Numbered from the stretch's first letter, positions 7,969-40,667 are shown. The stretch is 64,000 nt of DNA from Arcobacter defluvii (GCF_013201725.1 NZ_CP053835.1:496001-560000); one strand, 5' to 3'. Notes: generated by a model not told the origin, from the letters alone. Program-made: numbers and translations.

Positions 7969-9266
7969 TGAGTTACTTAATAATTAGTTTTTCTCATAAA
8001 AATATAGATATTAAAATGAGAGAAAAACTGGCTTTTAATAGTGATGAAGATAAAGATAGATTTATAAAACAACTTATAGAAAATGAAGCTACAAAAGAGG
8101 TAGTTTTATTATCAACTTGTAATAGAGTTGAAATAATCACTAGATCTTCAAATGTAAAACAAAGTGCTAGAAATATTATAGAAAAATTAGCAAGTTATTC
8201 TGGGCTTGATTTTGAACTTTTATATGATAGAGCTGATATTTATGATAATGACGGAGCAGTTCATCATCTATTTTCAGTGGCTTCTGCACTTGATTCACTT
8301 GTAATTGGTGAGACACAAATTGTTGGACAATTAAAAGATGCTTTTAGATTTTCTCAAGCAAAAGGTTATTGTGGCTCAAATATAACAAGAGTTATGCACT
8401 ATGCTTTTAAATGTGCTGCACAAGTAAGAAATGCAACAAGTTTAGGAACAGGTTCTGTTTCTGTTGCTTCAACAGCAGTTGCAAAAGCAAAAGATATTAT
8501 TGGAAATACAAAAGGTATTAAAGCTTTAGTAATTGGTGCAGGTGAGATGAGTGAGCTTACAGTTAAACATCTTATTTCATCAGGTTTTGATGTAACAATA
8601 ATAAGTAGAGATACAAAAAAAGCTCAAAATTTAGCAACCACATTTGAAGTTCATGTAAATGTTGAACCTTATAATGAATTATCAAACCTACTTGAAAAAA
8701 TACCAGTTATGATAACAGCAACTTCTGCACCTTATCCAATAATTACAAAAGATAATGCTCCAAATTCAAGTATAAATAGATATTGGTTTGATATTGCAGT
8801 TCCTAGAGATATAGATGAAGATATATCTATGCCAAATTTAGAAATTTATTCGGTTGATGATTTACAAGATATTGTAAATGAAAATATGAGTTTAAGAGCA
8901 GAACAAGCAAAAACAGCTTATGGAATAGTAAGTCGTATGTCGTTAGAGTTTTTTGAATGGCTTAAATCACTTGAAATTGAGCCAATAGTAAAAAATCTTT
9001 ATGTAAAAGGTAATGATATTATCGATAAAAAAATAAAAAAAGCAATAAAAAAAGGCTTTATAAATTCTAGTGATGAAGAAAATATTAGAAAACTTTGTCA
9101 AACTGTAATAACTGAATATTTACATCAACCATCAAAACAACTAAAAGATATTTCAAAAAATATGGAATGTGATTTAGTTGTAGGAACAGTTCAAAATATG
9201 TTTGGATTTAATAATGATTCAAATATTGCAACTAAATATAAATGCGACCATTTAGCAAAAAATTAG
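7968..9266 (+). CDS. hemA: Glutamyl-tRNA reductase
   Basis: NADPH-dependent reduction of glutamyl-tRNA to glutamate-1-semialdehyde, the first committed step of C5-pathway heme synthesis. The catalytic Cys51 sits in STCNRVEI. The substrate-binding block LDSLVIGETQIVGQLK and the nucleotide-binding segment ALVIGAGEMSEL are clear. At 432 residues it is of family length. It is coupled to the upstream prenyl synthase by a TAATG overlap and followed 28 bases later by proS. This order matches Helicobacter and Campylobacter. Confidence 0.97.
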   Translation: MSYLIISFSHKNIDIKMREKLAFNSDEDKDRFIKQLIENEATKEVVLLSTCNRVEIITRSSNVKQSARNIIEKLASYSGLDFELLYDRADIYDNDGAVHHLFSVASALDSLVIGETQIVGQLKDAFRFSQAKGYCGSNITRVMHYAFKCAAQVRNATSLGTGSVSVASTAVAKAKDIIGNTKGIKALVIGAGEMSELTVKHLISSGFDVTIISRDTKKAQNLATTFEVHVNVEPYNELSNLLEKIPVMITATSAPYPIITKDNAPNSSINRYWFDIAVPRDIDEDISMPNLEIYSVDDLQDIVNENMSLRAEQAKTAYGIVSRMSLEFFEWLKSLEIEPIVKNLYVKGNDIIDKKIKKAIKKGFINSSDEENIRKLCQTVITEYLHQPSKQLKDISKNMECDLVVGTVQNMFGFNNDSNIATKYKCDHLAKN

Positions 9267-29380: not shown

Positions 29381-29411
29381 AGAAAAAGAGTGAAAATATT
29401 ACTCTTTTTCT
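29381..29411. terminator. Bidirectional terminator between the rhodanese and acyltransferase genes
   Basis: A perfect 11-bp stem AGAAAAAGAGT/ACTCTTTTTCT spans a 9-nt loop, with A and T runs on either arm, between two convergent genes. It overlaps the last codons of the minus-strand gene. Confidence 0.78.
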
Positions 29412-31111
29412 ATATATCTTTGTTTTGCACTCTCTTTTATTTTCTCAACTTCAACTAAAATAAATCCATCAACACAATCTGCAAAATTTGTATCAATATT
29501 AAAATCTAAAAATTTAACGCCATTATCTTCTGCTATTTCACTATATTGTTTATATAAAGTTGGAATAGATACGCCAATATTTGATAAGGCTGATTTTAAA
29601 AATTTAAAATCTTTTCTTTTATCATTTAAATCAAAAAGCTCTTTTATATCATTTATATTATTTGAATATTGATATGGAGTTTTAGCTTCAACTAATTTTT
29701 CATTTGTTCCATAATAATGATTATAATAAAAAATTAACATATCTTTAGCAACAGCTGGGAAAGTTGCACTAAGAGAAACTGGACCAAACATATATTTTAT
29801 ATTTGGATTATTTTTTAAATAAGCACCAATTCCAAACCAAAGATAATCTAAAGCTCTCGTTCCCCAATATTTAGGTTGAACAAAACTTCTTCCTAATTCA
29901 ATAGAATCATGTAAATAAGGAATAAATTCTTCTGTGTATCTAAAAAGAACATTAGAATAAAAACCTTTTACGCCAATATTTTTAAAAATAAAATTTGAAT
30001 TTCCAATTCTATAAGAACCCACAATTTCTAGCTCATTTTCATCCCATAAAATAATATGTTGATAATAAATATCATATTTATCGGTATCTCTTTTTTTATT
30101 TACACCTTCACCAACTTTTCTAAAAGATAATTCTCTTAATCTTCCTAATTCTTTTAAAACTATTGAATCTTCTGTGTAATCATATAAATAAATCTTTTTT
30201 CCATCGTTTGTTTGTCCAATAAGTTTTGATTTTTTTAATTCATTTAACAAATCAATTCTACTAACAGGATGTGCAATAGCACTTTGGGTTTCAAAAAAAG
30301 ATTTTTTTCCTTTTTTTAGACTATACAGATGTTTTCTATATAAATTTAGTAAAAACTTTTTATCTATTCCTTTTGGAGTGATATTTTCATTTGGAATAAT
30401 TTGTCCAACTTTTATATTTATTCTTTTTGATTTCTTTTTGAACATTTCATGAGATAATAAAAGTGTTGAAAATGTTTTGTTAATTATAGATATTGTGTAA
30501 AATGTTTTCGAATTTTTAGCATCTAAATAAATTGGTAAAATAGGTGAATTTGTATTTTGTGCAAATTTTAAAAAACCTCTATTCCAAATAGGGTCTTTTA
30601 TCCCCTTTGTTGTAGCTCGGCTAACTTCTCCTGCTGGAAAAATAATAACTGCTTCTTCATTGTTTAAAGCTTCGTAAATTTTTTTTATATCAGTTTTTGA
30701 TTGTCTTATTTTATAGTTGTCTATTGGAATAAGTAAAGAATTTAAAGCTTCAAAACCAGCTAAAAAATCATTTGCTACTATTTTTACATCTTTTCTAATT
30801 TGTGAAATAAGTCTTAATAAACATAAAGCATCAAGTCCACCAAGAGGATGGTTTGCAATAATTACAACTTTTCCACTTGTTGGGATATTTTGCAAATCAT
30901 TACTTGAAGTTGTATAGTCAAAATCAAAATAGTCTAAAACAGCATCAACAAATTCAAATCCTTTTAAATGCGAATTTTGTGATAAAAATTGATTTATTGA
31001 ATCTTCATGAACTATTTTTTTTGCAATTTTAAATAAAGATTTTTTTAGAAAATTCTCTTTTTCTTTTATTTTTGGGAATTTTTTTTCTATCTCTTTTTGA
31101 ATGTCTATCAT
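29399..31111 (-). CDS. Fused O-acyltransferase / GNAT N-acyltransferase (OlsF-like)
   Basis: 570-residue two-domain protein. The N-terminal half is a lysophospholipid-acyltransferase-like domain with NHPLGGLD (87-94) and IIFPAGEVSRA, the variant motifs of the hemolysin-like O-acyltransferases. The C-terminal half (about 300-500) resembles OlsB-type acyl-ACP N-acyltransferases: GSYRIG, ELGRSFVQPKYWG and FGPVSLS. This order matches the bifunctional ornithine-lipid synthase OlsF, where the C-terminal part N-acylates the amino acid and the N-terminal part adds the second chain. The acceptor could be ornithine, glycine or another amino acid. The ribosome site TAGGAG precedes the ATG. Single gene, inner-membrane face. 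Confidence 0.78.
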   Translation of the reverse strand: MIDIQKEIEKKFPKIKEKENFLKKSLFKIAKKIVHEDSINQFLSQNSHLKGFEFVDAVLDYFDFDYTTSSNDLQNIPTSGKVVIIANHPLGGLDALCLLRLISQIRKDVKIVANDFLAGFEALNSLLIPIDNYKIRQSKTDIKKIYEALNNEEAVIIFPAGEVSRATTKGIKDPIWNRGFLKFAQNTNSPILPIYLDAKNSKTFYTISIINKTFSTLLLSHEMFKKKSKRINIKVGQIIPNENITPKGIDKKFLLNLYRKHLYSLKKGKKSFFETQSAIAHPVSRIDLLNELKKSKLIGQTNDGKKIYLYDYTEDSIVLKELGRLRELSFRKVGEGVNKKRDTDKYDIYYQHIILWDENELEIVGSYRIGNSNFIFKNIGVKGFYSNVLFRYTEEFIPYLHDSIELGRSFVQPKYWGTRALDYLWFGIGAYLKNNPNIKYMFGPVSLSATFPAVAKDMLIFYYNHYYGTNEKLVEAKTPYQYSNNINDIKELFDLNDKRKDFKFLKSALSNIGVSIPTLYKQYSEIAEDNGVKFLDFNIDTNFADCVDGFILVEVEKIKESAKQRYIEKE

Positions 31112-31187
31112 TTATACTCCTAATTTATAAAATTATAAAAAGGTTTGATTACAAAAAGGTGACAGAAAAAAATAAAAAATGTAAAAA

Positions 31188-31221
31188 TAGTTATTGAATT
31201 GTAATAGATATTTTTTATAAT
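31188..31221 (+). promoter_or_regulatory. Pho-box-like promoter 1 (diheme lipoprotein)
   Basis: TAGTTAT-TGAA-TTGTAAT is a 7-4-7 direct repeat with an 11-base period. Ten bases later comes TATAAT (31216-31221). The layout is that of a PhoB-type box replacing the -35 element. The first half-site is the weakest of the three copies in this block. Confidence 0.55.
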
Positions 31222-31267
31222 AATGCAAATTCTAAACTTTTTTAAATATTTTAAAGTAGGAGAAAAA

Positions 31268-33574
31268 ATGTTTAAGAAAGTCTTATTAAGTACAATTGCT
31301 GCGTATTTTTTAGTTGGATGTGGAGGAGGAAGTTCTTCAAATTCTTCCGATACATCAACAACAATTATTGTTGAAAGGGGAGCTGTTTTAAATGCAACAG
31401 TAAAAGATGCTTTAAATCAAATAGCTATTTGGAATAAGGGAACAAATAGTTATGTTTTTAAAAATAGTATAACTTATCCAATTAGTGTAATTGGTGGTTT
31501 TGTTGATATTAATAACGATGGAATAAAAAATGATTCAGATTTTGATTTAGATATTGAATTAAAATCTAGTAGTGGAAAAAATGTTACATTAATTTCAACT
31601 ATTATTTATAATCAAGATAAAATAAGAGAAAAAAATAATCTAAATATTTTAAGTAAAGAGTTTTCTTTAAGTGAAGAAGAGTTATTAAACTTGCCATCTT
31701 CAAAAAAAGAGTTAGCACTTTTATCAAATGTTATTTATAAAAATTTAGAGTTAAACTCTGCTATAACTTTAGAAAATATTGTTGAATTAATCTCTTTAAA
31801 TAAAATAGATTTAAAACAAGAATATGAAAAAATAGATTTACAAAACTATACAAATTTAAGTTCAAAAGAGTTTTTAGAAAAAAATGAATTAGAAACAATA
31901 GATGAAATAAAAGATATTAAAATTCTAAGAGAAAAACTACCAAGTTATATAGGAACAGATTTGACTTCAACTGAAGTTTTAAATGAAAAATCAGCTTATA
32001 TTTCACCTCAATGTTATACCAAAACACAAGATGAAAATCTAAATGTTTATAATCCTTGTTATTCTTGTCATATAAATTCTGATGAACCAAATTATATAGA
32101 TGATTGGGATTTACAAGAGAGTTATGCTTTTAGTGAAAATAGTTATAAAAATCCTTTTACAAATAGTTTTAAAGATAGAACAACTTTAGTAAATGCAATA
32201 AATGATAATCAAATTCTTGAATATATAAATCAAGATAACTATAAAGATGAAAATGGAAATATTATTTTAAATACAAAACTAAAATATGATTTACCAAAAG
32301 AGTGGGATTTTGCATATGATGGTGTAAAAGATAGTGTTTGGAGTGGATATGTACCTGATTGTTATTTTAACTTTGATGATGAAGGTTTTGATAAAGATAA
32401 AAAAGGTGAGTTTACAGGTTGGAGAGTTTTTGCATATAGTCCATTTTTAGGAACTTTTTGGCCAACAAATGGAAGTACAGATGATGTATTAATTAGACTT
32501 CCAAAATCTATGATGTTAGATGAAAATGGTGATTTTTCAAAAGAGATTTATAAAATCAATTTAGCAATTGTTGAATCTATGATTAAAAGAAAAGATATAG
32601 ATTTGGGTTTTGAAGTTGATGAGAGTAAATATGGAGTTGATTTAAATCATAATAATATTTTAGATAAAACTTCAACAATAGTTTATAAATGGATTACTCC
32701 TGATGCAATTAGTAATTATCCAAAGATAATATATTATAACTATTATGTTGGTCTTGCAAAAAGTAAACTTGAAACAAATGAACTTAATATTGCTCCAGGA
32801 CTTTATCCAAATGGAACAGAGTTTTTACACTCAGTTAGATATATTGGAATTAAAGATGATAAAAGTGGAATAAAATTAGCCAATAGGATGAAAGAGTTAA
32901 GATACGCAAAAAAAACAACTTGGAATACCTATGCTCAACTTAGTAATGCAGCATTAAGTGAGATAAAGGAAAAAGATACTTTTCCTGATAGATTAAGAAC
33001 TATTAAGGGAAATATTGAAACAGGATTGACAACTGGTTTAGGTTGGAATTATCAAGGATTTATAGAAGATATAAATGGAAATTTAAGACCACAAAGTTAT
33101 GAAGAAACTCTTTCTTGTATAGGTTGTCATTCAGGAATTGGTGCAATTACAGATTCAACTTTTGCTTTCCCTAGAAAATTTGATAGTGCAGATAGTTGGT
33201 ATCATTGGAGTAAGAAAGATTTAACTGGAACAAAAGATAGAACTCTTTCAAACTCAAAAGGTGAATTTGCTTTTTATTTAGAACAAAATAAAGCTGGAGA
33301 TGAGTTTAGAGCAAATGATGAAATAAAAAATTTATTTTTTGATGCAAATGGAAATTTAATTCAAAGTGAAGTGGATAAAGTTGCAAATGACATCACATAT
33401 TTAATCTATCCTAGTGTACAAAGAGCAATACAACTTAATAAAGCATATAAAATAATAGTAAATGAACAAAGTTATATTTATGGTAAAGATGCACATATTA
33501 AACCTTTAAATGCAACAGTTTATGATGAGGTAGAAATAGATAAAAAAACAGGAATAAGTGCTATTAAATTTTAA
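31268..33574 (+). CDS. Diheme c-type cytochrome lipoprotein, unknown family
   Basis: 768-residue lipoprotein. The signal peptide ends in LVGC followed by GGGSSS. An N-terminal extension (about 20-230) has a calcium-loop-like DINNDGIKNDSDFD. The rest is a module shared with the next gene: CYSCH (264-268), conserved WRVFAYSPFLGTFWPTNGS, CIGCH (617-621), GWYHW-like SWYHW, and RANDEI near the end. Two CxxCH motifs imply two covalent hemes. I start at the ATG at 31268, which has an AGGAG site; an ATG at 31223 lies right after the -10 and cannot be used. Probably a surface or periplasm-facing redox protein. I do not recognise the family. Confidence 0.8.
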   Translation: MFKKVLLSTIAAYFLVGCGGGSSSNSSDTSTTIIVERGAVLNATVKDALNQIAIWNKGTNSYVFKNSITYPISVIGGFVDINNDGIKNDSDFDLDIELKSSSGKNVTLISTIIYNQDKIREKNNLNILSKEFSLSEEELLNLPSSKKELALLSNVIYKNLELNSAITLENIVELISLNKIDLKQEYEKIDLQNYTNLSSKEFLEKNELETIDEIKDIKILREKLPSYIGTDLTSTEVLNEKSAYISPQCYTKTQDENLNVYNPCYSCHINSDEPNYIDDWDLQESYAFSENSYKNPFTNSFKDRTTLVNAINDNQILEYINQDNYKDENGNIILNTKLKYDLPKEWDFAYDGVKDSVWSGYVPDCYFNFDDEGFDKDKKGEFTGWRVFAYSPFLGTFWPTNGSTDDVLIRLPKSMMLDENGDFSKEIYKINLAIVESMIKRKDIDLGFEVDESKYGVDLNHNNILDKTSTIVYKWITPDAISNYPKIIYYNYYVGLAKSKLETNELNIAPGLYPNGTEFLHSVRYIGIKDDKSGIKLANRMKELRYAKKTTWNTYAQLSNAALSEIKEKDTFPDRLRTIKGNIETGLTTGLGWNYQGFIEDINGNLRPQSYEETLSCIGCHSGIGAITDSTFAFPRKFDSADSWYHWSKKDLTGTKDRTLSNSKGEFAFYLEQNKAGDEFRANDEIKNLFFDANGNLIQSEVDKVANDITYLIYPSVQRAIQLNKAYKIIVNEQSYIYGKDAHIKPLNATVYDEVEIDKKTGISAIKF

Positions 33575-33610
33575 GATTAAAAGAGAATTATATTTTATCA
33601 ATATGGATAA

Positions 33611-33644
33611 CTGTTATCAATTTGTAATAAAGCCAAAGTAAAAT
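33611..33644 (+). promoter_or_regulatory. Pho-box-like promoter 2 (second diheme cytochrome)
   Basis: CTGTTAT-CAAT-TTGTAAT (33611-33628) is followed, again after exactly ten bases, by TAAAAT (33639-33644). The left part also forms a near-palindrome, TGGATAA-CTG-TTATCAA (33604-33620), close to the 7-1-7 Fur-box pattern. Confidence 0.55.
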
Positions 33645-33670
33645 TGTGAAAATAAAAAAGGTTACTATTT

Positions 33671-35425
33671 ATGATAAAAAGAAGTTTTTTACTAGGAAAT
33701 ATGATTTTATTTTCTTCAATATTTGCAAATGAATTGGATTTAAAATCTACAAATGCACTAAATACAACGGCATATATTCCTAGTCAATGTTATACAAAAA
33801 CAGTGGATGAAAAAAATGAAAATATTCTTTATAATCCCTGTTTTTCCTGTCATACTTTAAATAAAGAACCAAATTTCACTCTAAGCGATGCTGATTTACA
33901 AGAAGGTTATGATTTTCCAAAAGATGCTTTAAAAAATCCTTGGACAAATCTTTTTAAAGATAGAACAAATGAAGTAGCTAAGATTAGTGATGAAGAGATT
34001 TTAAAATATATTAAAGTTGATAATTATAAAAATCAAAATGGTGAAATTATATTAAAATCAAAACTTGAAGATTTAAATGAAACTTGGGATGCTAATAACA
34101 ATAAAAAATGGGATGGTTATATTCCTGATATTTATTTTAATTTTAATGAAGAGGGTTTTGATTTAGATAACAGTGGAAAATTCACAGGTTGGAGAGTTTT
34201 TGCTTATCAGCCATTTTTAGGAACATTTTGGCCAACAAATGGAAGTACTGATGATGTGATGATTAGACTTTCAAAGCCATTTCAAAGTAATGAAAAAGGT
34301 GATTTTGATTTAGAAACTTATAAATTAAATCTTTCAATTATTGAAGCTTTAATCAAACAAAAAACTATAAATATAGATGAAATAGATGAAAAAAAATTTG
34401 GAGTAGATTTAAATCAAAATGGAATTTTAGATAAAACAACACAAATAGTTTTCAAATGGCTTAAACCTAAATACGATTTTGATTCAAAGAAATTTAAAAA
34501 TTTTTCTATGAGTTATGTAGGTTTGGCAAAAGAATTACTTGAAAAAAATGAACTTTTAATTGCACCTGGTTTATATCCAATTGGAACAGAATTTACTCAT
34601 ACCGTTAGATATCTTGATATTGACAAAAATGATGAAATTAAAATGTCAAGTAGATTAAAAGAATTTAGATATGCAAAAAAAACATCTTGGAATACATATT
34701 CTCAACTTAGTAATCTAGGCTTAGCTGATATAAAAGAAAAACATGATTTTCCCGATAGATTAGATGTTTATAAAGGAAATTTAGAAACAGGATTAAATAA
34801 TAAAAGAGGATGGTTTTATCAAGGTTTTATAGAAGATTCTAATGGAGATTTAAGGCCTCAAAGTTATGAAGAAACACTTTCTTGTATGGGCTGTCATAGT
34901 AATATTGGCTCAACTGCTGATTCAACTTTTGTATATCAAAGAAAATTTGAAAAAGATAGTTTTAATTCTGGTTGGTATCATTGGAGTAAAAAGGGATTTA
35001 AAAATATTCCAGATAAAAAACTAGAAAATGGTCAAACTGAGTATGTAAGATATTTAAAAGAAAATAGTGCAGGAGATGAATTTAGAGCAAATGATGAAAT
35101 TATGGATAAATTCTTCAAAAAAGATTGGCAAAAAGATACAAAAAATATAGAAAAAGATTTGATTTTTAAACTTGAAAATCCACAACTTGAACTAACTCAA
35201 GAATGGAAATTTAAACTAGAAGAATTAGAAAAAATCAAAAATGATATTTCATATTTGATTCTTCCTTCAAAACAAAGAGCTTTAGAATTAAATAAAGCAT
35301 ATAAAATAATAGTAAATGAACAAAGTTATATTTATGGAAAAGATATTCATATAAAACCTACACAAAATGTTCATAAAGAGATAAAAAAAGGAACAATGAC
35401 TAATCTTCAAAAGGTTTTAAAATGA
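33671..35425 (+). CDS. Diheme c-type cytochrome, paralogue of preceding gene
   Basis: 584 residues with a cleavable signal peptide (ending SSIFA) rather than a lipobox, so probably soluble in the periplasm. It aligns along its length with the C-terminal two thirds of the upstream lipoprotein: PSQCYTKT, CFSCH (57-61), GWRVFAYQPFLGTFWPTNGSTDDV, RPQSYEETLSCMGCH (second heme at 405-409), GWYHWSKK, RANDEI and the nearly identical tail KAYKIIVNEQSYIYGKD. The pair is a tandem duplication. Its stop overlaps the NicO gene by 4 bases, tying it to metal transport genes. The substrate and partners are unknown. Confidence 0.8.
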   Translation: MIKRSFLLGNMILFSSIFANELDLKSTNALNTTAYIPSQCYTKTVDEKNENILYNPCFSCHTLNKEPNFTLSDADLQEGYDFPKDALKNPWTNLFKDRTNEVAKISDEEILKYIKVDNYKNQNGEIILKSKLEDLNETWDANNNKKWDGYIPDIYFNFNEEGFDLDNSGKFTGWRVFAYQPFLGTFWPTNGSTDDVMIRLSKPFQSNEKGDFDLETYKLNLSIIEALIKQKTINIDEIDEKKFGVDLNQNGILDKTTQIVFKWLKPKYDFDSKKFKNFSMSYVGLAKELLEKNELLIAPGLYPIGTEFTHTVRYLDIDKNDEIKMSSRLKEFRYAKKTSWNTYSQLSNLGLADIKEKHDFPDRLDVYKGNLETGLNNKRGWFYQGFIEDSNGDLRPQSYEETLSCMGCHSNIGSTADSTFVYQRKFEKDSFNSGWYHWSKKGFKNIPDKKLENGQTEYVRYLKENSAGDEFRANDEIMDKFFKKDWQKDTKNIEKDLIFKLENPQLELTQEWKFKLEELEKIKNDISYLILPSKQRALELNKAYKIIVNEQSYIYGKDIHIKPTQNVHKEIKKGTMTNLQKVLK

Positions 35426-36153
35426 TAGAACTATATAATACTTTTTTAAACTTTGTTATAGGAACTCAACAAAAAATAAATCTTCAAATAAGCGATTATT
35501 TTGATAGATTAGAAACAGGTGATGAAAGTATGTTTATTTATATTTTAGCTGTTTCTTTTCTTTATGGATTAATTCATGCTTTAGGACCAGGTCATGGGAA
35601 AATGGTAATCGCAAGTTATTTTTTAACAAAAAATACAAAAATAAAAGAGGCTTTTAAAGCAGGATTTTTAACTTCTATTATTCATACAATTTCTGCTTTA
35701 TTAATAACTTTTACTTTATATATCTTTTTTGAAAATACAATCACAAAATATTTTTCAGATATAAATACAAATATGTATAAAGTTTCAGCTATTTTTATAA
35801 TTTTAATCGCCTTATTTTTATTCTATGAAACTTATAAAGATAGAAATGAAGAAGAAAAAATACAAAAAATTGGAAATAAAAGTTTATTGGCTGTGACTTT
35901 GTCAATAGGAATAGTTCCTTGTCCTGGAGTTATGTCAATAGTTTTGTTTTCTATAATTTTAGGATATATAAATCTTGGAATTTTAAGTGCAATTTTTATG
36001 AGTATTGGAATGGGATTGACAATCTCACTTGCTGCAATTATCTCTTCTCAACTAAAATCTTCAGAAAATAAAAACTTGCAAGCAATAATAAATAAGATTA
36101 GCTATTTAGGAATTTTATTGTTATTTAGTATGGGAATTATTTTATTGGTATGA
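35422..36153 (+). CDS. NicO-family nickel/cobalt transporter
   Basis: 243-residue inner-membrane protein with about six helices. The family motif GLIHALGPGHGKMVIASYF lies in helix 1 (about 48-66), with a second conserved patch VPCPGVMSIVLF. NicO proteins move nickel or cobalt, but some act on other metals. An ATGA overlap with the upstream diheme cytochrome and another with the downstream DUF1007 gene place it inside a single operon. The metal and direction of transport cannot be told from the sequence. Confidence 0.85.
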   Translation: MIELYNTFLNFVIGTQQKINLQISDYFDRLETGDESMFIYILAVSFLYGLIHALGPGHGKMVIASYFLTKNTKIKEAFKAGFLTSIIHTISALLITFTLYIFFENTITKYFSDINTNMYKVSAIFIILIALFLFYETYKDRNEEEKIQKIGNKSLLAVTLSIGIVPCPGVMSIVLFSIILGYINLGILSAIFMSIGMGLTISLAAIISSQLKSSENKNLQAIINKISYLGILLLFSMGIILLV

Positions 36154-36632
36154 AAAAGAAAGTAGCTCTATTTTTTTGTGGTTTAAATTTATATGCCCAT
36201 CCTCACTATTTTTTAGATTCAAGTTTACAAATAGATGAAAATATAGTTAAAAATTTTTGGAAATTTGATGCTTTAAATTCGAAGATTTTAATGTTTGATT
36301 TTGATAAAAATAAAAATAAAATTTTGGATAAAGATGAAAAAGAAGAATTTCTAAAAGCAAATTTTTATAAGTTAAAAGCAAATAATTACAATATTTTTTT
36401 ACAAAACGAAGAAAAAGAGTTTGAAATTATTCCTCAAAATGTAGAGGTACTTTATGAAAATAGAAAATTAACTATATATTTTGATTTCCCTTATGAATTA
36501 AAAGGTGAAACTACTTTTTGTACTATGGATGAAAAAATTTATTTAGCTTATAAATTAGAAGATTTAAAAACCAATTTAAAAACAGATATTCAAAAAAGTG
36601 AATATGATTATTGTATAGGAGTTACAAAATGA
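36150..36632 (+). CDS. DUF1007 periplasmic protein
   Basis: 160 residues. A signal-like start leads to AHPHYFLD, the His-rich beginning typical of DUF1007, and KNFWKFDALNSKIL follows as in the family. A loop DFDKNKNKILDKDE looks like an EF-hand. DUF1007 proteins commonly pair with NicO transporters and are thought to be periplasmic metal partners. It is coupled to both neighbours through ATGA overlaps. Confidence 0.8.
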   Translation: MKKKVALFFCGLNLYAHPHYFLDSSLQIDENIVKNFWKFDALNSKILMFDFDKNKNKILDKDEKEEFLKANFYKLKANNYNIFLQNEEKEFEIIPQNVEVLYENRKLTIYFDFPYELKGETTFCTMDEKIYLAYKLEDLKTNLKTDIQKSEYDYCIGVTK

Positions 36633-36940
36633 AAAAAGGATTAATATTGATTGGACTAATGAGTTATAATTTAGTTGCTCATCCTGTAAATTATACAATT
36701 GAATTAGAAGTTTCTTATAATGAAAATACAAAAGAAGCAAAGGTAATTTGCCAAAGTAATAGTAAAAATAAATGTGGTTTATATAATGTAAATTTATTAA
36801 ATGAGAAAGATGAAACTTTAGTAGATGTAAAATTTCCCTTTTTAAAAGATTTTATTTTAATAAAAACTGATATAAAACCCACAAAATTGGACTTTTATTT
36901 AAGACAAACTCCTGAACATAAGTATAGTAAAGTCTTTTAA
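36629..36940 (+). CDS. Small secreted protein of unknown function
   Basis: 103 residues from the ATG at 36629, which overlaps the DUF1007 stop (ATGA). A signal peptide ends near NLVA, and the mature protein starts HPVNYTIELEVSY. Two cysteines (ICQSNSKNKC) may form a disulfide. The rest looks beta-rich. I recognise no family. As last gene of the diheme/NicO operon it may be an accessory metal or redox partner. Confidence 0.65.
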   Translation: MKKGLILIGLMSYNLVAHPVNYTIELEVSYNENTKEAKVICQSNSKNKCGLYNVNLLNEKDETLVDVKFPFLKDFILIKTDIKPTKLDFYLRQTPEHKYSKVF

Positions 36941-36944
36941 TCAA

Positions 36945-37041
36945 GATACCACTTCTAGTTTTTAATATATTTATTTTTTTCTAAGAAGTCCTTTGTAAAG
37001 GTCTTTCTAATAAGTTAATTTTTTTTCTTTGGATACCACTT
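36945..37041 (+). repeat. Intergenic block with GATACCACTT repeat and hairpin
   Basis: GATACCACTT occurs at 36945-36954 and again at 37032-37041, 87 bases apart. Between them lies an imperfect hairpin (36985-37007, core CCTTT/AAAGG) followed at a distance by a T-run, possibly the terminator of the upstream operon. The second copy touches the regulatory site of the next gene. Confidence 0.4.
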
Positions 37042-37081
37042 TGATAAATGTTATCAATTTGTAATTTGTTGTTTTTATAAT
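37041..37081 (+). promoter_or_regulatory. Pho-box-like promoter 3 plus perfect palindrome (phoX-like gene)
   Basis: ATGTTAT-CAAT-TTGTAAT (37048-37065) lies ten bases upstream of TATAAT (37076-37081), as at the other two promoters of this block. Overlapping it is a perfect palindrome TTGATAA-ATG-TTATCAA (37041-37057), which matches the Fur 7-1-7 pattern at 12 of 14 positions. The controlled gene encodes a PhoX-type phosphatase, which supports the Pho-box reading. Confidence 0.6.
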
Positions 37082-37115: not shown

Positions 37116-40100
37116 ATGAAGAAAAAATACTTAAGTTTGAGTGCATGTTCTTTATTGGCTGCATTTACATTTATTGGTTGTGGAAGTTCATCTTCTTCTG
37201 ATAATAATACTCCTACCACTACAACAAGTACAGGGACTTTACAATTAAATCCATATTTAGCAAATATTGATTATACATGTGGTTCTATTGTTGGGACAAC
37301 TACATCAGAAGGTAAATTTACTTACGAAGATAATGGAACTTGTACATTTGTTATTGGGGGAAAATCTTTAACTGCAACACCTAGTTCAAATCTTACAATT
37401 GCTCAATTAGCAAATCAAAATGAAGGCGTATCAAGTGAAGTGCTTTCAGCTTATATTATTGCTAAAATGTCACAAAAAACTGGAATTACTTATGATATAA
37501 ATAATTTACCAGAAACTTTTGAATTACCAGATGATATAGAAGGAAGTACAACAAATCCTTTAGTATTTGATACATTTGATAATTTAAAAGCAAAATTAGG
37601 TACAGATTCAATAGTTTCAAAAATTGATAATATTAAATTTGATGTAGCAAATAGATTTGCAAAAAAAGTATCTTTATCATTTCAAGAGTTAGCAACTCCT
37701 ATTACAAATGAAGAACAATTAACTCAACAAGTTTCAAGTAAAGCTTATGTAAATGGTGAAGCTCAAAATATTTCATATACAGAAATTATGAAAACTACAA
37801 TGACTGGAAATAGTGAAATCTTAGGTCAATCAAAAGATTATTTAGATAATCCAATCACATTTGGTGATGGAAGTCCTTATATTTGTAATGGAACAAATGC
37901 AGGTGAAGGTTCAGGTATGGACTTTACATCTTTACACAATGTTGATGGAAAACTTTTTGCTATTTCTCAATTTGAATGTGCATTGGGTTCTATGTATATG
38001 GTTGAATTAAATCAAGATACATCAACAGGTAAATTAACACCTAAAACAGATACTTTAAAATATATTTCACAAAAAGCAGGATTTGGAGGATTTGTACACT
38101 GCGCTGGTCAAAAAACTCCTTGGAATTCTCATTTAAGTTCAGAAGAGTATGAGCCAGATGCAAAATCTCCAGATGGAAACTCTTATTATACAGAATTAGC
38201 AAAATATTGGGGTGAAAAATCATATAGTGCATATTATTATGGATGGACACCTGAAGTTAAAATTGAAAATAATGAACCAGTATATTCAAAACATTATGCT
38301 ATGGGAAGATTTTCTCATGAGTTAGCTTATGTAATGCCAGATAATAAAACTGTATATCTTTCTGATGATGGAACAAATGTAGGACTATTTATGTTTGTTG
38401 CAGATGTTGAAAAAGATTTAAGTTCAGGAACTTTATACGCAGCAAAATGGAATCAAACATCAGAAGCTGGTGTTGGAACAGGAAGTGCTGATTTAACTTG
38501 GATTAACTTAGGACATGCAACAAATGATGAAATTAAAAATATCTTAGACCCAGATGGAGATTTGACAACAAATGATGCTCCAACTTTTGCTGATATTTTT
38601 GATTCAGTATCTGCAACAAATGGAACTTGTGATTCAGGATTTACTTCAATCAACACAAGTGCTGGACAAGAGTGTTTAAAAATTAAATCAGGAATGGAAA
38701 AAGCTGCTTCTAGATTAGAAGTAAGAAGATATGCTGCATTAAAAGGTGCAACAACTGAGTTTAATAAAGAAGAAGGTATTACTTTTGATAAAAATGCAGG
38801 AAAACTATATGTTTCTATAAGTGATGCTAGAAAAGGTATGGAAGATAATAGTTCATACGATGTAGGTGGAAGTAACGATATTAAAATTGCTGCAAACAAA
38901 TGTGGTGCAGTTTATTCTTTAGATGTTTCAACTTCAGAAGTTAAAGATACTTCAAATACAGCAATTGCATCAACTTATGTTGTTAAAAATATGCAAGGTA
39001 TAGTTGCAGGTATCCCAACATCATATGACAGCTCATCTGCTTATGCAGGAAATTCTTGTGATGTAAATGCAATAGCAAGTCCAGATAATTTATCTTTCTT
39101 AGAAAATTCAAATACTTTAGTTATTGGAGAAGATACTTCTTATCACAAAAACAACGTAGTTTGGACTTATAATACAAAAACAACTGAATTAACAAAAACA
39201 TTTACTACACCACTTGGTGCAGAAACAACATCAGCATTCTGGTTCCCAAATCTTGCAAATGGATTTAGTTATTTAGGAGTTGTAACTCAACATCCAGATT
39301 TAAATACAACTGATGGTGGAGAATCTGCTTATGGATATGTTGGACCATTTAAAAACTTAACTGATTTAAAAGATAGTACACCACAAGTATTTAAAAATGG
39401 AGCGTCATTACCTTATACAGTATTAAGAAATGATTTAACAGATGGTTTAGGAAATAGTTTTGAAATAAGAAATGGTGGTTATGGTTCAGCTATGTCAGCA
39501 GATCCTGCTGATGCAAATAGTTTCTATGCAATAACAGATAGAGGACCAAATGCAGATTTTACAGGAGCAGAAGGAAAAGGTAAAAAATTCCCATTACCTG
39601 ATTATACTCCAAGAATTGGACATTTTAAAGTAACTTCAACTGGGGAAGTAGTTAAAACAAAAGAGATTTTACTAAAAGATAGAGATGGAAATAACATCAC
39701 AGGTTTACCAAATACAAGTGCTTTAGGTGGAACTGGTGAAATTCCTTATGATATAAATGGAAATGTAATTGTTGATTCAAAAGGAAATATGAGATTAGAT
39801 GATTATGGTTTAGATAGTGAAGGATTAGCTGTATTGAAAGATGGAACTTTCTGGATTAGTGATGAATATGGACCACATATTGTTCATTATGATGCAACAG
39901 GAAAAGAGATAGAAAGAATCAATCCATTTGCAAGTGATTCAAGAAACAAATATACTTTACCAGCAGAATTTGCAAATAGAAGAGCAAATAGAGGAATGGA
40001 AGGTTTAGCAATAACACCTGATCAAAAAACTTTAGTTGGAATTATGCAATCAACAATGTATAATCCATCAAGTTCAGTTAAAAATCTTGATATTACAAGA

Positions 40101-40667
40101 ATTGTAGCTATTAACTTAGAAGATGGAACAGTAAAACAATATTTATACAAACAAGAGAAAAAACAAAATGCAAACTCTGAATTAGTAGCAATTGATAATG
40201 ATACTTTCTTAGTATTAGAAAGAGATGAAAATTTCTTACAAGATTCAGGTGTTGAAAATACTCAAAAAAATGTATATAAAATCAAATTAAGTTCAGGTAC
40301 TGAACTTGAAAATGTTACATTAGGTACAAATATGGTTCAAGATGCAACTTTAGGATTAACAATTGATGGAAGTACATTAGAAGAGTATGTATTAGCAAAT
40401 GGTTGGTCTGGATTAGAATCAAAAGGAATCAAACCAGTTGAAAAAACTTTAGTGTTAGATATGGTTGCAAAAACAAACTATCCTCATGATAAAATGGAAG
40501 GTTTATGGCTTATTAATAACTCAACACTTGGTGTTTTAAATGATGATGATTTTGCTGTAACAGCAACAGATGGTATTTTAGAACAAAAATATCTTGATAC
40601 AAATAAATTAGTAATTGATAGTAATGTTTTATATATTATTAATGGTTTGGATTTAAGTGCAAATTAA
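37116..40667 (+). CDS. PhoX-type phosphatase fused to phytase-like esterase, lipoprotein
   Basis: 1183-residue lipoprotein; the signal ends FIGC (Cys22) and a Ser-rich linker follows. The middle part (about 230-740) is PhoX-like (DUF839): MGRFSHELAYVMPDNKTVYLSDDG, LFMFVADVEK and the later GITFDKNAGKLYVSISD. PhoX enzymes are calcium- and iron-dependent phosphomonoesterases. The last third (about 760-1180) matches the phytase-like esterase family: GGYGSAMSADPADANSFYAITDRGP, DSEGLAVLKDGTFWISDEYG and NRGMEGLAITPDQ. It probably releases phosphate from organic esters outside the inner membrane. The Pho-box-like promoter suggests induction by phosphate starvation. Confidence 0.85.
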   Translation: MKKKYLSLSACSLLAAFTFIGCGSSSSSDNNTPTTTTSTGTLQLNPYLANIDYTCGSIVGTTTSEGKFTYEDNGTCTFVIGGKSLTATPSSNLTIAQLANQNEGVSSEVLSAYIIAKMSQKTGITYDINNLPETFELPDDIEGSTTNPLVFDTFDNLKAKLGTDSIVSKIDNIKFDVANRFAKKVSLSFQELATPITNEEQLTQQVSSKAYVNGEAQNISYTEIMKTTMTGNSEILGQSKDYLDNPITFGDGSPYICNGTNAGEGSGMDFTSLHNVDGKLFAISQFECALGSMYMVELNQDTSTGKLTPKTDTLKYISQKAGFGGFVHCAGQKTPWNSHLSSEEYEPDAKSPDGNSYYTELAKYWGEKSYSAYYYGWTPEVKIENNEPVYSKHYAMGRFSHELAYVMPDNKTVYLSDDGTNVGLFMFVADVEKDLSSGTLYAAKWNQTSEAGVGTGSADLTWINLGHATNDEIKNILDPDGDLTTNDAPTFADIFDSVSATNGTCDSGFTSINTSAGQECLKIKSGMEKAASRLEVRRYAALKGATTEFNKEEGITFDKNAGKLYVSISDARKGMEDNSSYDVGGSNDIKIAANKCGAVYSLDVSTSEVKDTSNTAIASTYVVKNMQGIVAGIPTSYDSSSAYAGNSCDVNAIASPDNLSFLENSNTLVIGEDTSYHKNNVVWTYNTKTTELTKTFTTPLGAETTSAFWFPNLANGFSYLGVVTQHPDLNTTDGGESAYGYVGPFKNLTDLKDSTPQVFKNGASLPYTVLRNDLTDGLGNSFEIRNGGYGSAMSADPADANSFYAITDRGPNADFTGAEGKGKKFPLPDYTPRIGHFKVTSTGEVVKTKEILLKDRDGNNITGLPNTSALGGTGEIPYDINGNVIVDSKGNMRLDDYGLDSEGLAVLKDGTFWISDEYGPHIVHYDATGKEIERINPFASDSRNKYTLPAEFANRRANRGMEGLAITPDQKTLVGIMQSTMYNPSSSVKNLDITRIVAINLEDGTVKQYLYKQEKKQNANSELVAIDNDTFLVLERDENFLQDSGVENTQKNVYKIKLSSGTELENVTLGTNMVQDATLGLTIDGSTLEEYVLANGWSGLESKGIKPVEKTLVLDMVAKTNYPHDKMEGLWLINNSTLGVLNDDDFAVTATDGILEQKYLDTNKLVIDSNVLYIINGLDLSAN

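Follow-up and report, generated by a model that had tools for sequence, protein, structure and literature searches.

In Escherichia coli, PhoB boxes occupy the -35 position in the promoters of pst and of phosphatase genes. They are 7-4-7 direct repeats with an 11-nucleotide (nt) period at phosphate genes (PMC4415409), an arrangement shared by the sites described here. In Campylobacter jejuni, which belongs to the same phylum as the organism under study, the two-component system PhosS/PhosR controls pst and phoX (PMC3197622). Known PhoX and PhoD phosphatases are exported in folded form via the twin-arginine translocation (Tat) pathway, supposedly to permit iron loading in the cytoplasm (PMC4223295; for PhoX also PMC3197622), and the metal content of PhoX is two ferric and three calcium ions (PMC4223295). 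The present analysis concerns a 64,000-nt stretch of Arcobacter defluvii DNA (NZ_CP053835.1, positions 496001-560000 of a 3.02-Mb single-contig genome; hereafter the window, numbered from its first letter), in which four repeat-containing promoter sites precede genes for an ornithine lipid synthase (olsF), two diheme c-type cytochromes and a PhoX-phytase protein. Judged from sequence, the four sites are very probably Pho boxes at the -35 position and predicted targets of the PhoB/PhosR-like regulator of the pst operon under low phosphate, an assessment that excludes the role of the cytochromes.

All four window sites contain two 7-nt direct repeats with an 11-nt period, and the distance from box to -10 element is 10 nt in each. 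An earlier sequence-only reading had claimed three 7-4-7 repeats, each 10 bases upstream of TATAAT, TAAAAT or TATAAT, and direct reading of the 34-mers found all three as described. On the plus strand, TAGTTAT TGAA TTGTAAT-N10-TATAAT (31188-31221) comprises a Pho box at 31188-31205, a 10-nt spacer and the -10 element TATAAT at 31216-31221, and lies before the gene for a 768-amino-acid diheme cytochrome. The second site on this strand, CTGTTAT CAAT TTGTAAT-N10-TAAAAT (33611-33644; box 33611-33628, -10 TAAAAT 33639-33644), precedes the operon of a 584-amino-acid cytochrome, and the third, ATGTTAT CAAT TTGTAAT-N10-TATAAT (37048-37081; box 37048-37065, -10 TATAAT 37076-37081), precedes the PhoX-phytase gene; these two sites have an identical 17-mer in common. 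A matrix built from the three sites revealed a fourth that had been overlooked, CTGTCAC CTTT TTGTAAT-N10-TATAAT on the minus strand at 31132-31165 (box 31148-31165, -10 31132-31137), which points away from the 31188 site and is located 20 nt upstream of olsF (29399-31111). The strict pattern GTNAYNNNNWTGTAAY-N10-TAHAMT had 4 exact matches in the window compared to 0.01 expected from dinucleotide shuffles, none of which reached 4. This pattern was partly built from the window sites, and the independent tests are therefore pst, phoD and the relatives. An overlapping triple repeat at window position 8107 was rejected as it lies inside a coding sequence.

Pattern searches covered the complete genome. 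With at most one mismatch allowed, the strict pattern had 22 matches (18 with the five identical ribosomal RNA (rRNA) copies counted once) compared to 3 for the reversed pattern; because the pattern was shaped on seven of the genome sites, the conservation tests weigh more than this count. Within the pst locus at 221-231 kb, the same layout precedes both pstS (TAGTAACCAAAATGTAAC-N10-TAAACT) and pstC (ATGTAACCATTATGTAAT-N10-TAAAAT). Furthermore, a site directly upstream of the gene for the PhoD phosphatase was found blind with a pattern derived from the three sites first noticed. The sequence-only reading had named pst and phosphatase genes elsewhere in the genome as the places to look for the motif, and it is present at pstS, pstC and phoD alike.

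Several further genome matches and neighbors were noted. A gene for an EAL-GGDEF-CBS protein (genome 227566-229296) is found between pstS and pstC, the latter carrying its own Pho box, and a PsiE-like gene lies upstream of the response regulator gene in the pst locus. One of two PhoH-like (PIN-PhoH) genes is preceded by a Pho box (genome 2060814-2060851) whose -10 element ends just 5-6 nt before the ATG, an arrangement that is conserved in relatives and suggests a leaderless mRNA. An exact box match occurs 27 nt upstream of the pyruvate kinase gene (genome 382020). Five identical exact matches lie 31 nt before the 16S gene in all five rRNA operons (one of them at genome 1006428); these are probably due to chance or to an rRNA leader element rather than Pho promoters, and were set aside. 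A loose pattern with one mismatch, at 353 genome matches compared to 213 for its reverse, was too weak by itself. Matches at genome 105319 and 446820 were discarded for their unsuitable positions, which coincide with the start or end of a gene or are close to it. An overlapping triple repeat at genome 1482547 was rejected as it falls at a gene junction without the matching -10 layout.

The boxes are conserved in relatives. The olsF box, with the same spacing, scored at least 14 bits in 26 of 29 genomes (A. defluvii included) at 17-26 nt from the start codon, and was kept though the flanks had diverged between relatives; for comparison, 1% of random 220-bp sequences reach 11.3 bits and the best of 3000 scored 15.0. 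A box was present at 23 of the 25 evaluable pstS loci. The two PhoH-like paralogues differed, with a box before 13 of 17 orthologues of one and before none of the 8 orthologues of the other, and no phoD orthologues were detected among 40 genomes. Upstream of PhoX or cytochrome genes, boxes were found in six relatives (G029, G011, G032, G004, G050 and G055), of which G011 is a congener of A. defluvii. In G011, G029 and G004, the locus likewise opens with a gene that has the equivalent of the 31188 box upstream, the 33611 box is kept in G029 and G032, and the 37048 box is kept in G011, G029 and G032. Another relative, G017, has olsF with its box, and neither PhoX nor the cytochrome at the locus. 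In G029 (L182, 2502-7814), an open reading frame for a 1770-amino-acid lipoprotein-like product is located between olsF and the cytochromes, and the divergent Pho box is its promoter there. Among orthologous promoters the half-site varies between GTTAT, GTAAC, GTCAC and GTTAC.

The genes behind the four window sites encode proteins of lipid synthesis, redox chemistry, metal transport and phosphate release. The olsF gene (29399-31111, minus strand) encodes a bifunctional ornithine lipid synthase (NF052615, 829.5 bits against a cut-off of 620, positions 1-570 of 570); ornithine lipids are phosphorus-free. All other genes are on the plus strand. The 768-amino-acid diheme c-type cytochrome (31268-33574) has two CxxCH motifs and a lipoprotein signal, and its start is most likely at 31268 rather than at the first ATG at 31223, given the lipoprotein signal and an upstream AGGAG. 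Its 584-amino-acid paralogue (33671-35425), likewise a diheme c-type cytochrome, has a P460-like C-terminal domain and is followed, with a 4-nt overlap, by a gene for a NicO-family metal transporter (35422-36153; PF03824, 70.1 bits), a gene for a DUF1007 periplasmic protein (36150-36632; PF06226, 61.7 bits) and, as the last gene of the operon, one for a small exported protein of no family (36629-36940), the position of which is conserved. The DUF1007 protein probably works with NicO, the pair (35422-36632) resembling the ZevAB zinc transporter of Haemophilus, and a NicO-DUF1007 metal supply under Pho control is possible. The gene order cytochrome-NicO is the same in G029 and G032. The suggestion in the sequence-only reading that the regulon extends to diheme cytochromes and, by operon structure, to NicO gains support from conservation, and both are predicted members. 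The PhoX-phytase gene (37116-40667) encodes a 1183-amino-acid protein with a PhoX part (PF05787, 84.3 bits against a cut-off of 24), a phytase-like part and a general secretory (Sec) lipoprotein signal, with no Tat motif. The predicted structure of the PhoX part had a mean predicted local distance difference test (pLDDT) score of 91, its best match was Pseudomonas fluorescens PhoX (3zwu), and its iron-site Cys motif is retained, the Cys being invariant in 26 sequences.

The pairing of PhoX with the cytochrome was followed across bacteria, with one genome per species scanned. Cytochrome relatives were present at 185 loci, and the best 80 of these were examined, originating from Campylobacterota, gamma-, alpha- and delta-type Proteobacteria and one Caldithrix bin. 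A PhoX gene adjoined or lay near the cytochrome gene in 77 of 77 evaluable loci; in the remaining 3 of the 80 the contig stops right before the cytochrome. Wherever the neighborhood can be assessed, the linkage is therefore complete. No description of this pairing was found in the open-access literature searched. The promoters of the pairs were scanned with half-site matrices, the matrix outside Campylobacterota consisting of E. coli sites. Only the 11-nt period stood out: with it, 20 of 23 Campylobacterota phoX promoters scored at least 10 bits, whereas no other period gave more than 4. In the other groups, 9 of 45 promoters scored at least 12 bits, compared to 1-4 at other periods. The Campylobacterota matrix holds the sites of the window and its relatives, which makes that half of the result partly circular, but this does not apply to the 10-nt offset: TANNNT was found exactly 10 nt past the box in 14 of 22 cases in Campylobacterota and 9 of 22 in the other groups, with at most 2 at any other offset. 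The -10 element did not enter into the scan, and its fixed offset is the best indication of genuine promoter elements in several groups. According to simple motif rules, 69 of 70 cytochrome-linked PhoX proteins are without a Tat signal and 47 have a lipobox (in the one flagged protein, RR comes before the likely true start), and the linked proteins look Sec-exported and mostly like lipoproteins. Fusions also occur: some genomes have the cytochrome joined to a cytochrome-D1-like or PD40 beta-propeller, and others have PhoX joined to a choice-of-anchor I domain (L205, L207, L215, L241, L248, L198, L201 and L213).

The pst operon encodes a PhoB-like response regulator and a PhoR-like kinase. The recognition region of PhoB is EDRTVDVHIRRLRKAL...TVRGTGY, which the corresponding region of the pst-operon regulator, KEKTVNVAIKRLKAKI...SIRGEGY, resembles. 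Under low phosphate this regulator would bind head to tail to the two 7-nt repeats, which with their 11-nt period would stand in for a -35 element 10 nt before the -10, and would recruit sigma-70 polymerase. Expression of olsF (yielding a phosphorus-free lipid), PhoX-phytase and the two diheme cytochromes with downstream NicO-DUF1007 would thereby be switched on, along with pst, phoD and one PhoH-like gene elsewhere in the genome. The PhoB-box architecture first read into the window is supported by the same layout at pstS, pstC and phoD and by conservation in relatives. Several observations weigh against the assignment to a Pho regulon or limit its reach. The pst-operon regulator scored 176.4 bits, below the cut-off of 296.2 for the PhoB equivalog (TIGR02154), and is therefore called PhoB/PhosR-like, with its identity as the binder resting on position and resemblance; we infer both this identity and the response to phosphate. 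The genome also contains approximately 40 OmpR-type DNA-binding domains, and a convincing box was found in fewer than half of the promoters outside Campylobacterota. Finally, G004 has a boxed PhoX without the cytochrome, so that the linkage is not reciprocal and PhoX does not need the cytochrome in every case. The abundance of OmpR-type domains raises the alternative that a different regulator of the OmpR family, also with an 11-nt direct repeat, uses these sites, the PhoX gene being a coincidental member. Many OmpR-type regulators use tandem repeats of 10-11 nt, and the window half-site GTTAT is unlike the C. jejuni PhosR box, reportedly a GTTTC repeat of the same period. This alternative is nevertheless very improbable, as 23 of 25 relatives have the box upstream of pstS, and it is also found at olsF, phoD and a PhoH-like gene, the classic content of a Pho regulon. 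The difference from GTTTC had led to the guess of a different regulator or site class, which is not supported: the same box occurs at pst, and a separate class was rejected in view of the changes between GTTAT, GTTAC and GTAAC seen from one orthologous promoter to the next. Chance is a still poorer explanation and can scarcely be entertained. TTGTAAT and TATAAT are common in an AT-rich genome, the 17-mer alone with 3 mismatches allowed is barely enriched in the AT-rich window (5 matches compared to 2.7 expected), and some genome matches, among them the five upstream of 16S rRNA, probably do not represent Pho promoters. Against this stand the 4 strict window matches where 0.01 were expected, the specific combination of an 11-nt period with a 10-nt offset, and the fact that relatives have kept the box, its spacing and its position while the flanks diverged.

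Two roles are conceivable for the cytochrome. In the predicted structure (mean pLDDT 88), the second heme lies in a P460/c'-beta-like domain and an extra c-type heme is N-terminal. The C-terminal half matched P460/c'-beta with a Foldseek probability of 0.90 (root-mean-square deviation 3.3 over 136 residues), and all top fold matches were P460/c'-beta, but the Z score was only 5.6 and the template modeling (TM) score by query length 0.13. When solved structures were searched by sequence for the cytochrome family, nothing was returned, and the two cytochromes scored 19.5 and 22.6 bits against cytochrome P460 (PF16694), below the cut-off of 27. P460 and c'-beta are families known to oxidize hydroxylamine or bind nitric oxide, and some members of the present family are fused to a cytochrome-D1-like propeller, making it plausible, though short of probable, that the cytochrome is an enzyme of its own, e.g. 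an oxidase of the P460 type with a nitrogen or phosphorus compound as its substrate during phosphate stress, and not a helper of PhoX. The subthreshold Pfam score argues against this, as does the presence of PhoX alongside in 77 of 77 evaluable loci, which ties the function to PhoX rather than to a free-standing enzyme. Because the linked PhoX is Sec- and not Tat-exported, the cytochrome is alternatively suggested to form or keep the ferric iron in PhoX. As an extracytoplasmic redox partner it would take electrons from ferrous iron in Sec-exported PhoX, perhaps so that the iron of the active site becomes or stays ferric, and the ferric-calcium cofactor would form outside the cytoplasm. This helper role is tentative and on balance rather unlikely. 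The complete linkage, the retained iron-site Cys motif and the lack of Tat signals in 69 of 70 linked PhoX proteins (47 with a lipobox), unlike known Tat-using PhoX, are in its favor, while the box-controlled PhoX of G004 has no cytochrome and the iron of PhoX has been termed redox-inactive in work on PhoD (PMC4223295). The broader proposition is a widespread phosphate-regulated two-gene system in which Sec-exported PhoX could not build or preserve its ferric-calcium cofactor outside the cytoplasm without a diheme P460-like cytochrome dedicated to this task. PhoX would then have a second maturation route in addition to Tat export. This proposition is speculative and must be considered unlikely.

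The Arcobacter-type Pho box offers a means of reading this group's phosphate regulon, which would include pst, olsF, PhoX, PhoD and a PhoH-like gene, and it brings out a diheme cytochrome that accompanies PhoX in all evaluable loci examined, in several bacterial groups. If PhoX does need the cytochrome, phosphate acquisition would be linked to redox state in microaerobic and sulfidic waters.

Compared with the described systems, the E. coli half-site is CTGTCAT, whereas TGTWAY/TGTCAC is found here, and the predicted targets here include olsF and diheme cytochromes. The C. jejuni PhoX uses Tat (PMC3197622), while the PhoX described here looks like a Sec lipoprotein and has a cytochrome neighbor. 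In Vibrio cholerae, VC0489 (OlsF) is induced at low phosphate through PhoB (PMC12186959), a control that was shown experimentally, whereas the olsF control proposed here is read from promoter sequence alone, in another phylum. The likeness to P. fluorescens PhoX (3zwu) lies in the fold (E value 8e-17, TM score 0.57-0.59) and the iron-site Cys motif, at approximately 16% identity; the protein here differs in its Sec rather than Tat signal, its fused phytase-like domain and the adjacent diheme cytochrome. Lastly, the cytochrome may resemble cytochrome P460 and c'-beta in the fold of its C-terminal heme domain, but it is much larger, has a second c-type heme in its N-terminal part, scores below the Pfam cut-off and is partnered with PhoX.

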